41,043 nt of DNA, from the IMG/VR virus record IMGVR_UViG_3300017779_000030, positions 1-41,043 of that record; one strand, given 5' to 3'. Position numbers and translations under genes: made by a program. The stretch comes from a virus. Shown one piece after another: positions 288 to 24,070 of the stretch; the stretch's first letter is position 1, and every line of letters starts with the position of its first letter. The notes under the pieces are model-generated. The model worked only from the letters and a program-made list of their open reading frames with translations, was not told where the DNA came from and did not search any database.

Positions 288-983
288 TTAGTATTCAAAT
301 GGAGGTGTACCATAATCTTTTTGTTGAATACCATACCAAGTATTTCCAACTTGATAGTACCACCAACCATGTTTGTTGTCTTCTATAATCTTAAATTTGC
401 CCTTTGGTAATGGCGAATCTTTTTTAGAAGCTCTTGCAATGTATTTAAGAACAGGAACACCATCATCCCATGTTTTATCTGTTTTTCTAGCCTTTACAGA
501 TTTTCTATTGTCTGTGTTTGTTGCTGTATAAAGCTTAAATGTTGGGTCATCACCAAGAAAAGACTTAAATACATCTTCATTTACAGATTCTTTGTTTATT
601 GACCTAGCTGCCTTAACTGCTTTTTTATGGGCTTTACTTCCTTTTTTAGCTGGTTTTTCGCCTCTTTTTCTTTTGGCATGTATATTTGCCCAAAGGCCTT
701 GACTTTTTTCCGTTAAATCATCTATTGGTTCACTAGTAACCGCTTTATTAAAATCTTTTTCTGCTTGCTCTACTTTCTTATGAAGGCTTATTAAAGATTT
801 TTTAAAAGTTTCTTTCTTTTTAGGATCCTTTTCAGCAACAAACTTTTTTCTAAGTTCTTGCTGCTTTAATTGTATTGATTGAAGAGCTTCAACAGCTTTT
901 TGAAACCTTTTTGTTATTGAAGCTTCAGATAAAACAGATTCTATTTCCTCGCTTAGTATTTTTTTAAATTGTTTTATATTCAT
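288..983 (-). CDS. Basic protein with leader-like N-terminus and SH3-like C-terminus; candidate internal (packaged) protein
   Basis: No family is recognised with confidence in this 231-residue protein. The first 22 residues (MNIKQFKKILSEEIESVLSE, then Ala-Ser) form an amphipathic leader ending in L18-S19-E20/A21. That fits the [LI]-x-E/[AGS] cut site used by T4 gp21 prohead protease on internal proteins. Residues about 25-90 are charged and probably coiled coil. The middle is very rich in Lys and Arg (RKRGEKPAKKGSKAHKKAVK). The C-terminal 50 residues (KGKFKIIEDNKHGWWYYQV) look like a small SH3-type beta barrel. A basic body behind a capsid-type leader recalls the T4 internal proteins IPI-IPIII, but that is inference. 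The start has a weak GGGAT ribosome site. Sixteen bases separate its stop from the holin start. Confidence 0.6.
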   Translation of the reverse strand: MNIKQFKKILSEEIESVLSEASITKRFQKAVEALQSIQLKQQELRKKFVAEKDPKKKETFKKSLISLHKKVEQAEKDFNKAVTSEPIDDLTEKSQGLWANIHAKRKRGEKPAKKGSKAHKKAVKAARSINKESVNEDVFKSFLGDDPTFKLYTATNTDNRKSVKARKTDKTWDDGVPVLKYIARASKKDSPLPKGKFKIIEDNKHGWWYYQVGNTWYGIQQKDYGTPPFEY

Positions 984-1031: not shown

Positions 1032-1622
1032 TTAGTCTTTGTTATTCAACTTTTCCAAATGAGAAGTTATTTGACTCTTTATATTTTCAACGTTTTCGTC
1101 TACTATTGTTTTGATTTCGTCTTTATTTTGACTTGACCAATCTTCTATTTTTCCTGTTTCAGTAATATAACCTTTTCTATTTGTTTCTGAAATAAAATCT
1201 TGTGCAACCTTAGTTAAATCTTCCATCCAATCTTTTGCGTTTTCAGATCTTATTTTATTTGCATATTCTATATAGTTTCCACCAATTTTTAATTTAGTTT
1301 CATAACTTATTCTACAATTAGAGCACTCGCCATACAATTTCCAAAATAGTTTATCCATTTGACCTCTCATATGTTTTTTCTTACACTTTGGGCAAAATAA
1401 AGGCATTATTGCTGAATTTCTGGCCTTGTCTAATTTAGTAAGGGTTTGGGTAATTCCGTTCTTTATTGTCCACTTTTTGCCTTTTTCTTCCCAAACTTCT
1501 CCTTCAACGTGATCACCTAAACTTTTACCATAACCTACCTGTATTTTGGTTTTACTTCCAAACTGTTTTGTAACTAAATTTCTCATTCTTTGAACTTTAT
1601 GTTCTGGAATATATTTTTTCAT
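1032..1622 (-). CDS. Zinc-ribbon protein of unknown function
   Basis: This 196-residue protein carries a four-cysteine zinc ribbon: C77-x2-C80 (CPKCKKKH) and C100-x2-C103 (CSNC). About 19 residues separate the two pairs. The segment before it (KKWTIKNGITQTLTKLDKAR, about 50-68) may be a nucleic-acid-contacting helix. The C-terminal 60 residues are acidic and helical (DEIKTIVDENVENIKSQI). No catalytic motif is visible. The start is supported by AAAGGAG. The gene lies 14 bases downstream of the 801-residue nucleotidyltransferase/ligase-like gene, so the two are probably co-expressed. Unlike three neighbours, its N-terminus has no convincing [LI]-x-E-[AG] leader. A role as a nucleic-acid-binding partner is only suggested. 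Confidence 0.62.
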   Translation of the reverse strand: MKKYIPEHKVQRMRNLVTKQFGSKTKIQVGYGKSLGDHVEGEVWEEKGKKWTIKNGITQTLTKLDKARNSAIMPLFCPKCKKKHMRGQMDKLFWKLYGECSNCRISYETKLKIGGNYIEYANKIRSENAKDWMEDLTKVAQDFISETNRKGYITETGKIEDWSSQNKDEIKTIVDENVENIKSQITSHLEKLNNKD

Positions 1623-1636
1623 AACCTTTTTCTCCT

Positions 1637-4042
1637 TTAGAAAGTCATCATACCAGCAATTTGATTTACTGGGGCAAATGCACCTGTTAATTTATATGTG
1701 TTTCCTTTGTATATAAAAACCAATCCTTCACTTGGAATTATAGTTTTAAATCCTCCGATAGCTGCAATTTTTTGCAATTGTTGAGTCATTCTATTTAATT
1801 TTTTAAGGTCTCCACCTTTTCTAACATCATTAATAGCTTTTGCTACCTGTTTTCTAACATTTTGAATTGCTTTATCTGGATTAGCTGCTAAGAATCCTTC
1901 CACATTTTTAAGTACTTCAGCGCCTAATTCAAAAAATAATGTTTCAAAAGGAAGCATATTATTTTTTACTTGGTCTGCATGTTTTATTTTATCAAATTCT
2001 TTTGCTTTTTTAAGTAGGTCTTCACTAGGTATAGTTTTCTTGTCTAATCTAAATGACTTATCAAAGAATGCCCAACGTTTAACCAATCCCATTTTAATTG
2101 TATTATCAACACCTTTCATTTTTTTATCAACAAAGTTTTCCCACCAAGCTTGATGATATTCAGCAAATGTTGATGTGTCTTTCATATTAAACTTTTTCAT
2201 AAGTTTTTTAAGTTTTTCAGTGAAATAAGGTTTTTTTGCTGAGTAGTCTTGGTGAGGTTTCATCTTCAGAATCTTAGGTCCAATTATAGAAAAGTTTTTT
2301 TGAACGCTTTGATTTATTTGTGCAATCATTCCTGCAAGAATTCTTGCTCCGTCTTGAACTGACCCTATGGCTTTGCCATCTTTATATTGTAATACATTAT
2401 GAAACTGTAGGTATGGTGCATCATACGTAATCACATTGGCAGAGGCAGGAAACATTATTTCCATATTTACCCAGTTATTACCGCCATTAAATATTTTTTC
2501 TTGTTGTTTAGCATTAAGACCTCCAATTGCTTTTGCTAGATCTTTCATTGCAAAAGTAAATGCTTTTTCTATATTGCCTCTACCTTTAAATTTTGCAGCA
2601 ACGGCTTTATAGTCCATTCCACCACGCTTAAGGTCTCCAGTATTTCTAGCAGCTAGCATTTTGCCATTCCAACTAATAAATAAATTTTGGCCATCAGTTT
2701 TTTCTGTTGCTGCTTTTTCTAAATCAAGATTTCCTTGAAGAGCAAGGTTAATTATATTTTTAAAGTCTCCAAATGTTAAAGCTCTATCATCGAATGGATG
2801 GGACATGTGACCATATGCTCCACCTTCAACTAATAATATTTGATTAGCTAGCCATTCACCTAAACTTTCTTTAACAGTATGGATAGATGTAGGTTTAATA
2901 ACGGTTGGCTCTTGAAAGTGTATATTGGTTTTTTTCTGTTTGCTCAACATTTTTTGTAGCTTTTTTTCTTCTTTGTCTATTTTTATAGGTTCTTTTTTAG
3001 ATTGTGTAGATGATATTTCAGCACCTAGAAAGTTCAAAAATTCATATCCAGCAGATTGAGCTATATATTTTGACCAACTACTCCATCTAGTATAAGCGTC
3101 TCTTCCTCTTTTATCTTGAAGGTAGTTTGTTCCAGCAACAACATCTTTTGCTCCTGTACCCGGTACACCAACAGGAAAATATGAAACTGCTGCGGTTGGT
3201 CCTCCAGTAAAGTCTTTCTTAAACGCTGTATCGTGTTGAAAAAATTCATTTTCTCCAGCAATATAATCTATAACCTCCATTCCCATTTTTTCAGCTAAGG
3301 CTTTATTACTTGTTCGATATGCTTTTTGAGTACCATAAAAATATCTTGGTCCGTCATCAACATCAGCTGACCCTGGGGCTGTTTTTGAAGCTTCACTTAT
3401 TATATCTAATATATTACTGTTTTGGCAAAAGTCTTCAATGGTTTCATTTAATTTTTCTAGCTTATTTACTATAAGGTCATAATTTTTTGTGTGGCCAAAT
3501 ATTCCCTTAAAAACCTTTAACTTTTCAACCTTGTTTAATTCTTTATCTCCCAAAGCTTTTCTAATTGCCGTGCCGCTCATTTCTCCATATCCTGGTACAT
3601 TCATTGAAACATGAGGAGCAATTATGAGATATGCTCCTTCTTTATATCCAATCTCAGCCTTGCCTTTCCAATCTTGAAAAAACTTACCCTTAAGTCTTCC
3701 TGCGTCTTTTGAACCTACCATAAATACTGCTGCTGTAGTTTTAGGGTCATATTTTTTTAATATTTCTTCTGCCTTATATGGGTTTTTTACTTTTACAACG
3801 TTTTTTATTCCGTGGGAATTTATTATTTTTCTTTTTTCAGCAAATGAAAATGGTGATTTTGGTAAATTTATTTTATCGCTTGTTCCAACATAAGAGTCTT
3901 TAAACTTTGACTGGAGCCACTTAAATGTTTTTGCGTGGTGAGCTCCCATAGGTTGAAATCTTCCAGGATATATTGCAACAATAGTTTTAATATTTGTTTC
4001 CTCAAGTAAAATTTTATCTGATAAATATTTTCCTAAACTCAT
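1637..4042 (-). CDS. Multidomain nucleotidyltransferase / unknown / ligase-like protein, possibly a cleaved polyprotein
   Basis: Three domains can be seen in this 801-residue protein. Residues about 18-200 are a cytidylyltransferase/NMNAT-type fold with GRFQPMGAHH at 27-36 (the H-x-G-H region) and SGTAIR at 156-161 (the ISSTxxR-type motif). Residues about 218-345 are a domain I do not recognise. Residues about 407-801 resemble covalent nucleotidyltransferases (RNA/DNA ligase superfamily). They show K448-T-D-G (motif I), AARNTG just after it, WVNMEIMFP (motif III-like), E772-G-L-V-F (motif IV) and K784-L-T-G (motif V-like). The protein start (SLGKYLSDKILLEE, 2-15) is echoed at 393-406 (SLGEWLANQILLVE), immediately before the ligase domain. 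A third leader-like stretch ends IISE217/A218. These resemble prohead-protease sites. The gene overlaps the kinase gene by four bases (ATGA), which implies coupled translation. Substrates are unknown; NMN, CTP/ATP-activated metabolites and nucleic-acid ends are all possible. Confidence 0.8.
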   Translation of the reverse strand: MSLGKYLSDKILLEETNIKTIVAIYPGRFQPMGAHHAKTFKWLQSKFKDSYVGTSDKINLPKSPFSFAEKRKIINSHGIKNVVKVKNPYKAEEILKKYDPKTTAAVFMVGSKDAGRLKGKFFQDWKGKAEIGYKEGAYLIIAPHVSMNVPGYGEMSGTAIRKALGDKELNKVEKLKVFKGIFGHTKNYDLIVNKLEKLNETIEDFCQNSNILDIISEASKTAPGSADVDDGPRYFYGTQKAYRTSNKALAEKMGMEVIDYIAGENEFFQHDTAFKKDFTGGPTAAVSYFPVGVPGTGAKDVVAGTNYLQDKRGRDAYTRWSSWSKYIAQSAGYEFLNFLGAEISSTQSKKEPIKIDKEEKKLQKMLSKQKKTNIHFQEPTVIKPTSIHTVKESLGEWLANQILLVEGGAYGHMSHPFDDRALTFGDFKNIINLALQGNLDLEKAATEKTDGQNLFISWNGKMLAARNTGDLKRGGMDYKAVAAKFKGRGNIEKAFTFAMKDLAKAIGGLNAKQQEKIFNGGNNWVNMEIMFPASANVITYDAPYLQFHNVLQYKDGKAIGSVQDGARILAGMIAQINQSVQKNFSIIGPKILKMKPHQDYSAKKPYFTEKLKKLMKKFNMKDTSTFAEYHQAWWENFVDKKMKGVDNTIKMGLVKRWAFFDKSFRLDKKTIPSEDLLKKAKEFDKIKHADQVKNNMLPFETLFFELGAEVLKNVEGFLAANPDKAIQNVRKQVAKAINDVRKGGDLKKLNRMTQQLQKIAAIGGFKTIIPSEGLVFIYKGNTYKLTGAFAPVNQIAGMMTF

Positions 4043-4743
4043 TTTGATTTCCTAAGCTCTAATTCTTTTTTAATCCACTGTTTGGCTATGTGATTTTGTA
4101 CGGGTCTTGTTACAAATTCTCTTGCCTTTGATTTTATAATATCTGCAAAATCTTTTTTTTCTGAATTATCTACAACTAGCATATTGCTTGAACCAAATAA
4201 ACTTTGGAATTTACCTAGGTTATTTTGTACTGCCTGCCAAGAAGATTTTACTAATTCTGTTGGAAGTTTTCTTTCTCTTTCTTGGTTTCTTTCAAGAGCA
4301 ACGTCTAGGTCAGTGTTGACAAATATCATAAAGCAGTCATAACCTACAGCCTGTAATCTTTTTTTCTGCTTAGCTATATTAGGATAATTTTTACCTGTTC
4401 CATCTATGAGTAAACCTAGCCGTCCATTTATATAATTTTTTAATGCAGCATCTCTAACCTTTTTACTTTTTTGCCTTAGTTGCATGGCTTGAGAATATTC
4501 TGATGGTTTTAATTTAGCTATGTCTTGGCTTAATCCTTTCATCTGTAAATATGTTTCAAAATACTTATCGCTGTTTACAGATTTCAACCCTTGAGCAGAA
4601 ACAAAAGGCATTTTTTCAGGCATACCAAATAGACTTGACGCTGCATATGATTTACCACTACCAGGGCCACCTGCAGTAAATACCGCTTTGAATATACCTG
4701 GATCGTATATGCCTTCGTTTAATATGTCTACTAGTTTAATCAT
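4039..4743 (-). CDS. Zeta-toxin-like P-loop kinase
   Basis: A Walker A motif GGPGSGKS lies at residues 25-32 of this 234-residue protein. The fold continues with NSDKYFETYL, a Walker-B-like segment (GLLIDGTGKNY) and a lid-like Arg-rich helix (ERNQERERKLP). This is the pattern of the zeta toxin / AAA_33 kinase family, which phosphorylates small molecules, sugars or nucleic-acid ends. No antitoxin gene accompanies it, so toxin function is not implied. The N-terminus MIKLVDILNE/GIYDPG ends in L8-N9-E10/G11, matching the prohead-protease site pattern. Its stop overlaps the start of the nucleotidyltransferase/ligase-like gene, suggesting a joint pathway such as polynucleotide end processing. The start lacks a Shine-Dalgarno site; an AT-rich GATATTTATATA element directly abuts the ATG. 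Confidence 0.78.
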   Translation of the reverse strand: MIKLVDILNEGIYDPGIFKAVFTAGGPGSGKSYAASSLFGMPEKMPFVSAQGLKSVNSDKYFETYLQMKGLSQDIAKLKPSEYSQAMQLRQKSKKVRDAALKNYINGRLGLLIDGTGKNYPNIAKQKKRLQAVGYDCFMIFVNTDLDVALERNQERERKLPTELVKSSWQAVQNNLGKFQSLFGSSNMLVVDNSEKKDFADIIKSKAREFVTRPVQNHIAKQWIKKELELRKSK

Positions 4744-19561: not shown

Positions 19562-22500
19562 TTAGTGCTCAACATGGCTATAACCTTTCTTATTAGATAT
19601 TTCCAAAAGGTTATCGGTGGCATCTTTCATCAAATCTATATGGGATATTACCGTTATGAAGTCAAAGTTTAATTTTAAATATTCAAATAATCTAAAAATT
19701 GCGTTTAAGTTGTTTGAATCTAAATTTCCAAATCCTTCATCAATTGCTAAAAAATTTGGACACGGTAAATTAGATACATTTATTAGTGCTGTTCGGATTG
19801 CAAGTGAGCTTACAAATTTTTCCATTCCACTGGTCATTTCTAATGGCCATTTTTCTAAATCACCGTAAACTATATATGTATTTATGTTTCTACCATCTGT
19901 TTCAAATTGTATTGAAAAGTCTGATATTTGAGAAAGAATAACGTTTACTTCTTCTTCAACATAAGGAAGTATTTCTGAAATTAACTCGTACGGTACTCCA
20001 TCTCTTTGTATTGCACTAAGATAATATTCGTACGCTTTAAGTCTTTCTTCTAGGTCGTGTGCTCTCTCAATTGATTCATGAATAGACTGAATGGTTTTTT
20101 CACAAACCTTAATGTCACTATATGCTTGTTGTTGTTTTGAAGCTACAACATGTAGGCTTTCGGTTATTTCTTCTAACTCTAATTCTTTTTGTTCTATCTT
20201 TTCATTTATTTTATTATTTGAAAATATAGATCGCTTATTTTCAAAAAACTTATCAATTGAACCCTTTGTATTTTTTATATCTAATTCTTTAGAAGATATG
20301 TTAGATTCTCTAGTAACTTTTTTTACCTTTATTTCAGATTGATATTTTACGTGTAATGCTAGTTTAGATTCTAGGTTTATTAATGTTTGCAACTTTGTAA
20401 CTGAGGGTTTTAAATTGTTTTTTTCAGTTTCAAGATTATTTTTTTCAAATAAAAGTTTTTCAGTTTCTATTTTTAGTTTTGGAAGTTCTTGTTTGGCGGT
20501 TTCTGCATTTTTTACAAATACGTTGTCTTGGCAGTATTCACAGTCTGGATCGTACTCGTGGCTGTGTAATCTTTTAACGGTATCTAGCTTATTTTTAACT
20601 TCTACCTTCATTAAGTCTATATTATTGTTTACCTTTTGTAATTTTTTTTCTATGTTATTATACGACTCTGATTCAGTTGTTAGTTTTTGCTTATTATAAG
20701 ATTTTATTTCTCCAGATAGCTCTATAAACAATTTTTTATTTTCTTTAGTGTATTTTTCATACTTACTTAACTTTTCGTTTTCATCCTTTAACTGTTTTGA
20801 CAAGGCAGTAAGTGATTCTTTTAGTGCCTCTACACTTTCAGGTACATCTGAACCTAGTCTAATTAACTTAGACGTATATTCAATAATCTTTTTATTTGCA
20901 GTCTTTTCACTTTTTTGTATTTTGGTTTTTTCTACATTTAGGTTTGAGTATTCTAGTTCTAAACCTTTTAAAGAGTCTGTTGCTTCTGTTAAATTTTCAG
21001 AAAAGTCTGTTTTATTAAAGTCTTTTAATAGTACCTGTACGTCTTTTATTTCTTCATTTGCTAATTGGTATAGTTCTTCAAAAACGGTTATATCTAAAAA
21101 CTGTACCAGTAGGTCTTTTTTCTCTGTCTGCGTTTTATCTATAAATCCAGTATTATTATTTTGAACAGATAGAGATGTTAGTGCAAAATCTTCATAACTA
21201 CCAAGCATTCCTCTAATATTTCTATTTGTATATACTCTTTGCTCTCCATTTAATGATATTATAGACCCATCTTCTCCAACCATCCAAAAATTTACGTCAA
21301 CTCGTGCACCGCCATCTTTTTTTCTTTTTGCTTTTCTTTCTATAAAATAATCAACACCATCAATTTCAAAATTTAGTTTACAAGAAAAATTATTTTTTTT
21401 ATTGTTTATTACGGCGGCCGCCATTTTAGTTCTAGAGCATTTATCAAATATACAAAAAGATAAAGCGTCTAATATTGCAGATTTTCCGGCATGATTTGCT
21501 GCAAATATTCCGACTGCTCCTTTCATATTATTAAAGTCTATGGTGTTTCCTTCTCCATAACTAAACATATTAGAAAACTCAAACCTTTTAGGTTTCCACT
21601 TTATATTTCTGCCTATTTCAATGTCAGGCAACATTTTGTTTAATTCTCTATTTATGTTTCTTATTCTAGATATTTTTTCTTCGTCTATGTCCGCAAAATT
21701 TCGTTGAAGGTGCTCTATTATTAGTTTATTTTGATACTCAGAATCTCTAATATCCCTTGTAATTTCAGTTGAAGACCTAGAATTATTTGATATATTTGAA
21801 ATCTTATCTCCACGTATTACAACATAATCTTGAACCCTACATTTTTTTCGTATTTCTAATAAAGACTCTTTTACTTGTGCTTGGGTAGTATTTTCCGTTA
21901 TAAACCTTAGCCTAGGATATTTTGGTATATCATCAATGTTTGGTAATACTCCATCCTTCATTCTTATTGTATAATATCCATATTCATTGGTTATATTAAA
22001 AAATTCAGATTTTCTAGTTTTAACATCCCAAATAACATATCCATGATCTTCAAAAGTTTCTCCAAAATTTTGTTGTATAAGAGATCCTGCGTATGTTATT
22101 GTTTCAGACTTGTTTAAATGTTGGTATTTGTGTATATCTCCCAACATTACCATGTGGCAGCCATCAAAAGTTTTTAACGGTAAATTTTCATCTTTTACAG
22201 TATAGCCTGCATCAGTTTTTGAATTGTTTACTGCACCGTGAAATAAACCTATCTTATTTTTAGATTTTGATTTTTTTGCATCAGGCCAAGTTTCTGTTTC
22301 TTCTAGAACAGAGTATACTATAAAATCAACGTTTGCAAACGTATATATTCCACTATCTCTTAAATAATATAAGTTTTCATTTGCTAAATTTTCTACTATT
22401 GGGCTTAACGCATCTAGTCTTGACCTATTATTAAGGTTGGCATCGTGATTACCAGCAATTAAAACTGTTGGTCGTATGTTTGCAAGCTTATTAAAAAATT

Positions 22501-22717
22501 CGCTTACTATACTTACCAGTTCTGGGCTAATATCTGTTTTTGTGTGTACAATATCTCCAGCCAAATATATTATGCTATTTTCAGGCAAAGCTTTGGCAGC
22601 TTTATATAATTTTCTAAACACTTGCCTGTATTCTTTGTGTCTTTTGTAATTTCTAATATGTACATCTGCAACGTGTAATATTTTTTCAACTTCGTTAAAT
22701 TTTAAATTAATATGCAT
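19562..22717 (-). CDS. Single-chain Mre11-Rad50 recombination nuclease (gp47-gp46 fusion)
   Basis: One uninterrupted 1051-residue ORF carries both subunits that T4 encodes separately as gp47 and gp46. The nuclease part (about 1-340) has D18-V-H20, G54-D55, G89-N-H-D92, H160 (GLFHG) and GDIH at 193-196. The ATPase part (about 375-1051) has a Walker A-like AANHAGKS (about 402-410) and long coiled coils. A zinc hook C-E-Y-C (about residue 726), a signature-like TSGMEKF (about 960), Walker B FLAIDEGFGNLD (about 985) and ISHID follow. It should resect DNA ends for recombination-dependent replication. The start overlaps the end of the primase gene by 11 bases. Departures from consensus are Ala for the first Gly of Walker A and Asp for the first His of GHxH. 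Confidence 0.9.
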   Translation of the reverse strand: MHINLKFNEVEKILHVADVHIRNYKRHKEYRQVFRKLYKAAKALPENSIIYLAGDIVHTKTDISPELVSIVSEFFNKLANIRPTVLIAGNHDANLNNRSRLDALSPIVENLANENLYYLRDSGIYTFANVDFIVYSVLEETETWPDAKKSKSKNKIGLFHGAVNNSKTDAGYTVKDENLPLKTFDGCHMVMLGDIHKYQHLNKSETITYAGSLIQQNFGETFEDHGYVIWDVKTRKSEFFNITNEYGYYTIRMKDGVLPNIDDIPKYPRLRFITENTTQAQVKESLLEIRKKCRVQDYVVIRGDKISNISNNSRSSTEITRDIRDSEYQNKLIIEHLQRNFADIDEEKISRIRNINRELNKMLPDIEIGRNIKWKPKRFEFSNMFSYGEGNTIDFNNMKGAVGIFAANHAGKSAILDALSFCIFDKCSRTKMAAAVINNKKNNFSCKLNFEIDGVDYFIERKAKRKKDGGARVDVNFWMVGEDGSIISLNGEQRVYTNRNIRGMLGSYEDFALTSLSVQNNNTGFIDKTQTEKKDLLVQFLDITVFEELYQLANEEIKDVQVLLKDFNKTDFSENLTEATDSLKGLELEYSNLNVEKTKIQKSEKTANKKIIEYTSKLIRLGSDVPESVEALKESLTALSKQLKDENEKLSKYEKYTKENKKLFIELSGEIKSYNKQKLTTESESYNNIEKKLQKVNNNIDLMKVEVKNKLDTVKRLHSHEYDPDCEYCQDNVFVKNAETAKQELPKLKIETEKLLFEKNNLETEKNNLKPSVTKLQTLINLESKLALHVKYQSEIKVKKVTRESNISSKELDIKNTKGSIDKFFENKRSIFSNNKINEKIEQKELELEEITESLHVVASKQQQAYSDIKVCEKTIQSIHESIERAHDLEERLKAYEYYLSAIQRDGVPYELISEILPYVEEEVNVILSQISDFSIQFETDGRNINTYIVYGDLEKWPLEMTSGMEKFVSSLAIRTALINVSNLPCPNFLAIDEGFGNLDSNNLNAIFRLFEYLKLNFDFITVISHIDLMKDATDNLLEISNKKGYSHVEH

Positions 22718-23668: not shown

Positions 23669-24070
23669 TTATTTTAACCAGTCGGTTGGTATTTCTTTTT
23701 CTGCCCAAACTATTCCATGTTTTTCACAAAAATCAGCATAAGTTGTTTTACTTCCCTTTCTTATTTTTCCATTTGGGTTTTGAAAAACAATTCTTATGTC
23801 TAATTTTGGGTACTGTTTCTTTATTAGTAAATGTTTTTTACGATCCTCAAGAACCCACCTTCCTTTTGTTTCTACCAATATACCGTTTGGTAATGTAAAA
23901 TCTACAGTATATTTGTGTTGGGTTTCTGGTTTAATATAATTTATAACTGTAGTTTCGTATTCAAATTTAGTTTTTGATTCTTTTAGTTGATCTGCTACCT
24001 TATGCTCAAATCCTGACCTGTATCCATGCTTGATTGCATTTGATCTAGCTTTACTTATTCTTCTTGCCAT
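23669..24070 (-). CDS. Endonuclease I, Holliday-junction resolvase (T7 gp3-like)
   Basis: This 133-residue protein closely follows the Phage_endo_I family. The catalytic residues known from T7 (E20, E35, D55, E65, K67) are matched here by E22, E37, D57, E67 and K69 in RSGFEHKV, KFEYE, YTVDFTLPNG and VETKGR. TTYADFCEKHGIVWAEKEIP ends the family-type C-terminus. It should cut branched DNA as a domain-swapped dimer, resolving recombination intermediates before packaging. T4 itself uses the unrelated gp49. An AAGGGATT ribosome site precedes the start. A 46-residue ORF overlaps its first 20 bases. Confidence 0.93.
   Translation of the reverse strand: MARRISKARSNAIKHGYRSGFEHKVADQLKESKTKFEYETTVINYIKPETQHKYTVDFTLPNGILVETKGRWVLEDRKKHLLIKKQYPKLDIRIVFQNPNGKIRKGSKTTYADFCEKHGIVWAEKEIPTDWLK

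Follow-up and report, generated by a model that had tools for sequence, protein, structure and literature searches.

A predicted head polyprotein of leader-bearing, enzyme-like modules in a T4-type phage

The stretch of marine phage DNA analysed here, which we call the window, is 41,043 nt long (positions 1 to 41,043 of IMG/VR record IMGVR_UViG_3300017779_000030). Among its genes is an open reading frame of 801 residues that a previous sequence-only reading had singled out without giving a strand, and that lies on the minus strand (Table 1). The three short segments on which that reading was built (residues 2-15, 211-219 with sequence ILDIISE↓AS, and 393-406) are all found where it had placed them. 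The gene sits between a P-loop kinase gene and a gene for a Zn-ribbon-like protein, the latter being directly downstream also in Microcystis phage Mel-JY01 and in the jumbo phage LR756508. Further along the window, a 1051-aa ORF (19562-22717, minus) joins Mre11-like phosphoesterase (PF00149 at 12-198) and Rad50/SbcC-like ATPase parts (AAA_23/SbcC Walker B later in the chain), which T4 encodes as separate genes 47 and 46, and a T7-type endonuclease I (23669-24070, minus; PF05367, 5e-55) adjoins a DnaG-like primase in this T4-type phage.

Table 1. Predicted polyprotein gene, its parts and candidate co-packaged proteins (window positions unless a contig is named; ↓ marks a candidate cut).
Feature	Position (nt)	Strand	Basis
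Predicted polyprotein ORF, 801 aa	1637..4042	minus	ORF calls; 80 collinear homologues in IMG/VR
Leader 1, aa 2-15, SLGKYLSDKILLEE	3998..4039	minus	candidate sites LLE14↓E and LEE15↓T; LxE in 64/65 homologues; leader PSSM
Module 1, aa 19-199, NMNAT/PPAT-fold nucleotidyltransferase-like (GRFQPMGAHH, SGTAIR)	3446..3988	minus	PHROG, profile, Foldseek
Leader 2, aa 201-217, TIEDFCQNSNILDIISE	3392..3442	minus	bracketed by LNE200↓T and ISE217↓A; E200 63/65, E217 65/65
Module 2 (middle domain), aa 218-346, linker to 392; VDDGP...GPTxAVSYFPxG	3005..3391	minus	alignments
Leader 3, aa 393-406, SLGEWLANQILLVE	2825..2866	minus	VKE392↓S before, LVE406↓G at end; repeat statistics; E406 65/65
Module 3, aa 407-801, ligase-like (EK448xDG, E528, E772G, YK784LTG)	1640..2824	minus	invariant motif residues; weak RNA_ligase PF09414; hhalign
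P-loop kinase gene, upstream of polyprotein gene, leader MIKLVDILNE↓GIYDPG	4039..4743	minus	Zeta_toxin/AAA_33; polynucleotide kinase/ATPase PHROGs
Kinase leader MIKLVDILNE, aa 1-10, site LNE↓G	4714..4743	minus	logo, separate versus fused kinase junctions
231-aa neighbour protein, leader MNIKQFKKILSEEIESVLSE↓AS, candidate co-packaged	288..983	minus	sequence; LxE at 12 and 20
196-aa Zn-ribbon-like protein, directly downstream of polyprotein gene	1032..1622	minus	position kept in relatives
Small ORFs with MIKLKxLIxE leaders	L344 7847-8161, 8163-8489; L343 6932-8000	rc	leader sequence

The first module resembles a nucleotidyltransferase, as judged from a match to a PHROG cytidyltransferase (4e-5), a profile comparison with PPAT/NadM, and Foldseek best matches to NadM, PPAT and NadD (E about 0.01) that give it the fold of HxGH nucleotidyltransferases. 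An ISGTxxR-type motif is kept in 160 of 167 sequences. The HxGH signature is found in 16 of 136 unique sequences, with GxHH in 120 and GAHH in the window; because of this replacement we do not claim NMN adenylyltransferase activity. The change falls at residues 28-36 (nt 3935-3961). The third module carries the KxDG nucleotidyl-lysine motif plus motifs III, IV and V, with K448, D450, G451, E528, E772 and K784 invariant in a 16-member alignment, and it is on these motifs that its putative assignment to the ligase superfamily rests. RNA_ligase (PF09414) matches a relative weakly (0.029), the Pfam gathering score not being reached (14.9 bits versus 27, in one relative only). With hhalign the module aligns with T4 Rnl2 at motif I only and gives nothing against T4 Rnl1 and gp30, and a PDB sequence search with the ligase profile returned nothing significant. 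The middle module (218-346) has no PHROG match and no relative in the domain libraries searched, and its AF2 model is poor (pLDDT 51). Of the domains typical of published polyvalent proteins, ART-like and Pol-beta-type ones are seen in some relatives; the window polyprotein has no Pfam match to a domain of this kind.

Residues 2-15 recur at 393-406 with 8 of 14 identities, exactly as the sequence-only reading had counted. The repeat scores 39 in BLOSUM62, the next best 14-mer in the 801-aa protein scoring 16, and 39 was reached in only 2 of 20,000 shuffles when the N-terminal leader was compared with all 14-mers (P=1e-4). With a PSSM made from 46 distinct homologue leaders, position 393 reaches 29.3 bits and the runner-up 0.1 bits. 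Ranked among all pairs of 14-mers in the protein, the repeat stands out less (P=0.03), so that its weight is carried by the N-terminal anchoring and the homologue profile. The sequence-only reading had named a lack of conservation of 393-406 as a refutation, and the complete segment is indeed not conserved: it is confined to some lineages, about 27 of 65 close homologues (20 of which also have [VIL]xE just upstream of it), and the remainder keep only the terminal [LI]xE↓GG. The conserved feature before the ligase-like module is the predicted site, not the 14-aa repeat.

The 801-aa protein has seven [LI]xE motifs (at 14, 15, 200, 217, 251, 396 and 406), six of them inside or bordering the three segments and only 251 within a domain. 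Among 65 full-length aligned homologues, whose counts are phylogenetically dependent and do not represent independent events, [LI]xE is kept in at least 60% of the sequences at just four columns, E14, E200, E217 and E406, all of them at module borders. L/I-x-E is found at the three leader/mature junctions in 64/65, 65/65 and 65/65 homologues, and E217 is invariant while its flanking columns have 2.3 bits of entropy. E200 (LNE200↓T) is a fourth site that the sequence-only reading had missed; since segment 201-217 is bracketed by E200 and E217, it would be excisable. The low AF2 confidence at the junctions favours cutting there; the position of E200 in a predicted helix speaks against it. In wider sets of unique proteins, the middle-module junction has LxE in 136/136, and the ligase junction (before GG[A]YGH) has E at P1 in 148 of 189, M in 39 and C in 2; where P1 is E, P3 is L or I in 148/148 and P2 is variable. 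At the other end of the chain, leader 1 finishes as LLE↓E or LEE↓T, with a P1' (E/D/N) unlike A/G/S. Leader 1 thus fits the T4 gp21 pattern in its published L/I-x-E form and not in the stricter form, with A or G at P1', that the sequence-only reading had seen in two of the three segments.

Some observations temper this picture. LxE also occurs in several non-head proteins of the window, so the motif alone proves nothing. Inside domains it is depleted in the close clade (0.85 per protein observed versus 3.35 expected), but the nucleotidyltransferase and kinase modules of giant relatives show no such depletion (ratios of 1.1 and 1.3), which weakens depletion as a general argument. A more distant clade, comprising 39 of the 189 unique proteins (L158, L165, L168-L170, L173, L174 and others), has LLLM↓GG at the ligase junction, with a further LxE at most 40 aa upstream in only 17 of 36 testable members; there the predicted site is lost or moved. 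The jumbo-phage homologue LR756508 has no site at the ligase junction.

The sequence-only reading had asked for the prohead protease of the phage and its cut site on the capsid protein, and both were located, the latter as a candidate. The window stops short of the head genes, and an IMG/VR contig 100% identical to it across 8 kb runs on into them, with terminase, portal, prohead protease (Peptidase_S77 type; PF03420, E=3e-34), a gp22-like core protein, an S21-like protein and a T4-type capsid protein. T4 gp21 cleaves after E in L/I-x-E (PMC9026906); the capsid protein here has a candidate site, QLIDE↓AS, at which cleavage is predicted and which lies close to where T4 gp23 has E65 (LTE↓A). PF03420 was found in 20 of 25 related contigs tested, and one relative's protease is 37% identical to T4 gp21. 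The S21-like gene (L342:1400-1759, minus; PF01165, 1.5e-10), related to that of the ribosomal protein, lies between the prohead protease and the core and capsid genes of the contig identical to the window.

Homologues in which the domains stand apart with leaders of their own, another expectation of the sequence-only reading, do exist. The ligase-like module is standalone in the 462-kb phage LR756500 (MKFLKSYEEFLNENLILE↓GGSYGH). In L376/L378 and L350 the chain opens with the middle module, whose N-terminal leader is there the homologue of 201-217 (GDKIGDFIVENDVISIIKE↓). The kinase is separate in the window and in most close relatives (MIKLxDIL[NST]E↓GxYDPG) and fused in L163, L167, L171, L174 and L255 (xxE↓GVNDPG or similar). 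Conversely, 26 giants carry the nucleotidyltransferase module inside the chain, and in 20 of them LxE immediately precedes it. A named two-part relative, the 639-aa protein of Microcystis phage Mel-JY01 (NNNIIAE↓GGLGGHMNHPFDD), comes from a phage with its own annotated prohead protease. Module orders include mid-nmnat-lig, mid-nmnat-kow-lig, nmnat-kow-mid-lig and lig-nmnat. L255 has a CCA/poly(A)-polymerase-type nucleotidyltransferase (PF01743, 5e-31) and an HD domain, with 2428 aa in the locus and a start that lies upstream in L344, giving about 2463 aa by coordinate reckoning; other relatives add a Pol-beta-type nucleotidyltransferase, a Zn_protease/retropepsin-like domain and, recognised by eye, ART-like (ADP-ribosyltransferase-like) and Nudix-like modules. 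Two or more distinct domains thus share a chain and vary among relatives, as is typical of polyvalent proteins, and the fixed three-part fusion of the sequence-only reading gives way to a shuffling modular family of one to six or more modules. 

Several features of these relatives deserve mention in their own right. An HNH/homing-endonuclease-like stretch, recognised by eye, is inserted between the middle and ligase modules in L148:1-2181, and the ligase module precedes the nucleotidyltransferase module in L349:4339-7243, on a contig binned as Pelagibacteraceae. A scan of genome contigs returned only phage-like contigs binned in MAGs. The phage with the giant polyprotein has further small ORFs with MIKLKxLIxE leaders, which are candidate packaged proteins.

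We consider it probable that the 801-aa ORF encodes a head polyprotein whose leader-bearing modules are cut apart by the gp21-type protease. In front of each enzymatic module stands a short segment, hydrophobic or amphipathic, that would act as a leader and ends in L/I-x-E. Judged by the T4 capsid-targeting sequences, such leaders may carry the chain into the core of the prohead. There the protease would cleave it after E14/15, E200, E217, E406 and perhaps E392, leaving in the capsid a nucleotidyltransferase-like protein of about 185 aa, a middle-module protein of about 175 aa and a ligase-like protein of about 395 aa, which could be ejected with the DNA alongside the separately encoded kinase. 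Cleavage, packaging and ejection are all steps that we infer from sequence. The strongest argument for joined proteins is the reciprocity of the modules, which occur separate or fused, with their leaders terminal or internal. The original idea that proteins with their own leaders were joined and are separated again by the protease thus survives, through the conserved border sites, the protease of the same species and these reciprocal forms, with corrections as to the conservation of the repeat, the P1' residue and the number of modules.

Among the alternatives, the one that fares best, although we regard it as unlikely, is a polyvalent protein that stays uncut: the N-terminal leader would target it to the head and be removed, and the modules would be injected as one chain, the internal LxE segments being former leaders or helices for interaction. 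Injected proteins of several modules that need not be cleaved have indeed been described (PMC5512222), and one clade has lost E at the ligase junction. However, unused leaders should decay, whereas all 65 of 65 homologues keep E217 and E406, and an L or I fixed at P3 amid variable P2 and flanks is the pattern of a protease site and not of a linker. We give distinctly less credit to a fused cytoplasmic enzyme, made during infection and absent from the virion, with the leaders serving as protein-interaction helices. The kinase and RNA ligase of T4 are ordinary non-virion enzymes, and nucleotidyltransferase-like and ligase-like domains could serve NAD or RNA metabolism after infection; yet the gene is part of the late block and lies just upstream of terminase-portal-protease-core-capsid, its leaders end with the prohead protease motif, and the standalone forms have leaders like the T4 capsid-targeting sequences. 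Least credible of all is a component of the prohead core or scaffold that the protease would break into fragments for expulsion, as with T4 gp22 or gp67, since core proteins, although T4 shows that they are cleaved to fragments (PMC9026906) and several LxE sites on one chain might recall them, are LxE-rich throughout (16 in the 269 aa of T4 gp22), whereas here the sites are at domain borders and leave intact the catalytic domains, whose active-site residues are conserved.

The set of modules always found with the ligase (kinase, CCA-type nucleotidyltransferase, HD, Nudix-like and ADP-ribosyltransferase-like) might, speculatively, constitute a ready-made kit. The joint occurrence of kinase, nucleotidyltransferase, HD and ligase-like enzyme suggests RNA end repair, and we put forward, tentatively, that the set repairs RNA or tRNA ends against host defences that cut tRNA; ligation of the entering phage DNA and restoration of NAD are alternative functions. 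It is conceivable, though short of probable, that tailed phages use a true polyprotein strategy for ejected enzymes. Mobile modules, each with a leader serving both as capsid address and as protease site, would be strung together into chains of at most about 2460 aa, enter the head as a single chain, be cleaved by the capsid protease at the prohead stage, and reach the host, just as infection begins, as an RNA-repair/NAD toolkit made in advance. Were the model correct, a leader plus L/I-x-E would be a modular, readable code predicting which phage proteins enter hosts, the loading of stoichiometric multi-enzyme kits would be explained, and a natural design would be at hand for delivering several proteins in one phage head. 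The model also connects, in a way that can be tested, packaged kinase, CCA-type nucleotidyltransferase and ligase-like modules with the tRNA-cleaving defences of the host.

The closest precedent lies in T4, whose internal proteins IPI-III and Alt bear capsid-targeting sequences and are processed by gp21 (PMC9026906). Short N-terminal L/I-x-E leaders, a gp21-type protease gene beside the capsid genes and the presumed ejection of enzymes with the DNA are common to both, and the kinase leader MIKLVDILNE and the standalone ligase leader MKFLKSYEEFLNE resemble the T4 sequences. However, capsid targeting in T4 is known for single proteins only, separate and with one leader each, whereas here several modules of other enzyme families would share a chain with internal leaders. 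With the kinase and ligase pair of T4, Pnkp (PseT) and Rnl1, the system shares the association of both types of enzyme and a plausible role in countering tRNA cleavage; the T4 enzymes are separate and synthesised after infection, and the ligase here is only distantly T4-like (best, weakly, Rnl2). In the giant phages phiKZ and SPN3US, a gp21-like protease cleaves many packaged ejection proteins after x-x-E (PMC10052503, PMC7411985), but the cuts reported in the consulted parts of these papers remove propeptides, and several mature enzymes from one chain were not found there. A literature search for a phage polyprotein cleaved by the prohead protease, with subscription papers and preprints outside its scope, found none. 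The polyvalent proteins of phages and conjugative elements, for which the authors noted a likeness to viral polyproteins and a release by embedded peptidases (Iyer et al. 2017, PMC5512222), also unite unrelated enzymatic domains in one polypeptide; these are shuffled among relatives, and the proteins have been proposed to accompany the DNA into the host. Their peptidase is embedded, whereas the cutter predicted here is the prohead protease, which would act in trans on leaders with a conserved L/I-x-E. The ingredients, T4 capsid-targeting processing and polyvalent proteins, are already known; their predicted combination, in a leader-bearing chain of enzymes cut in trans by the prohead protease, was not found in the literature searched.
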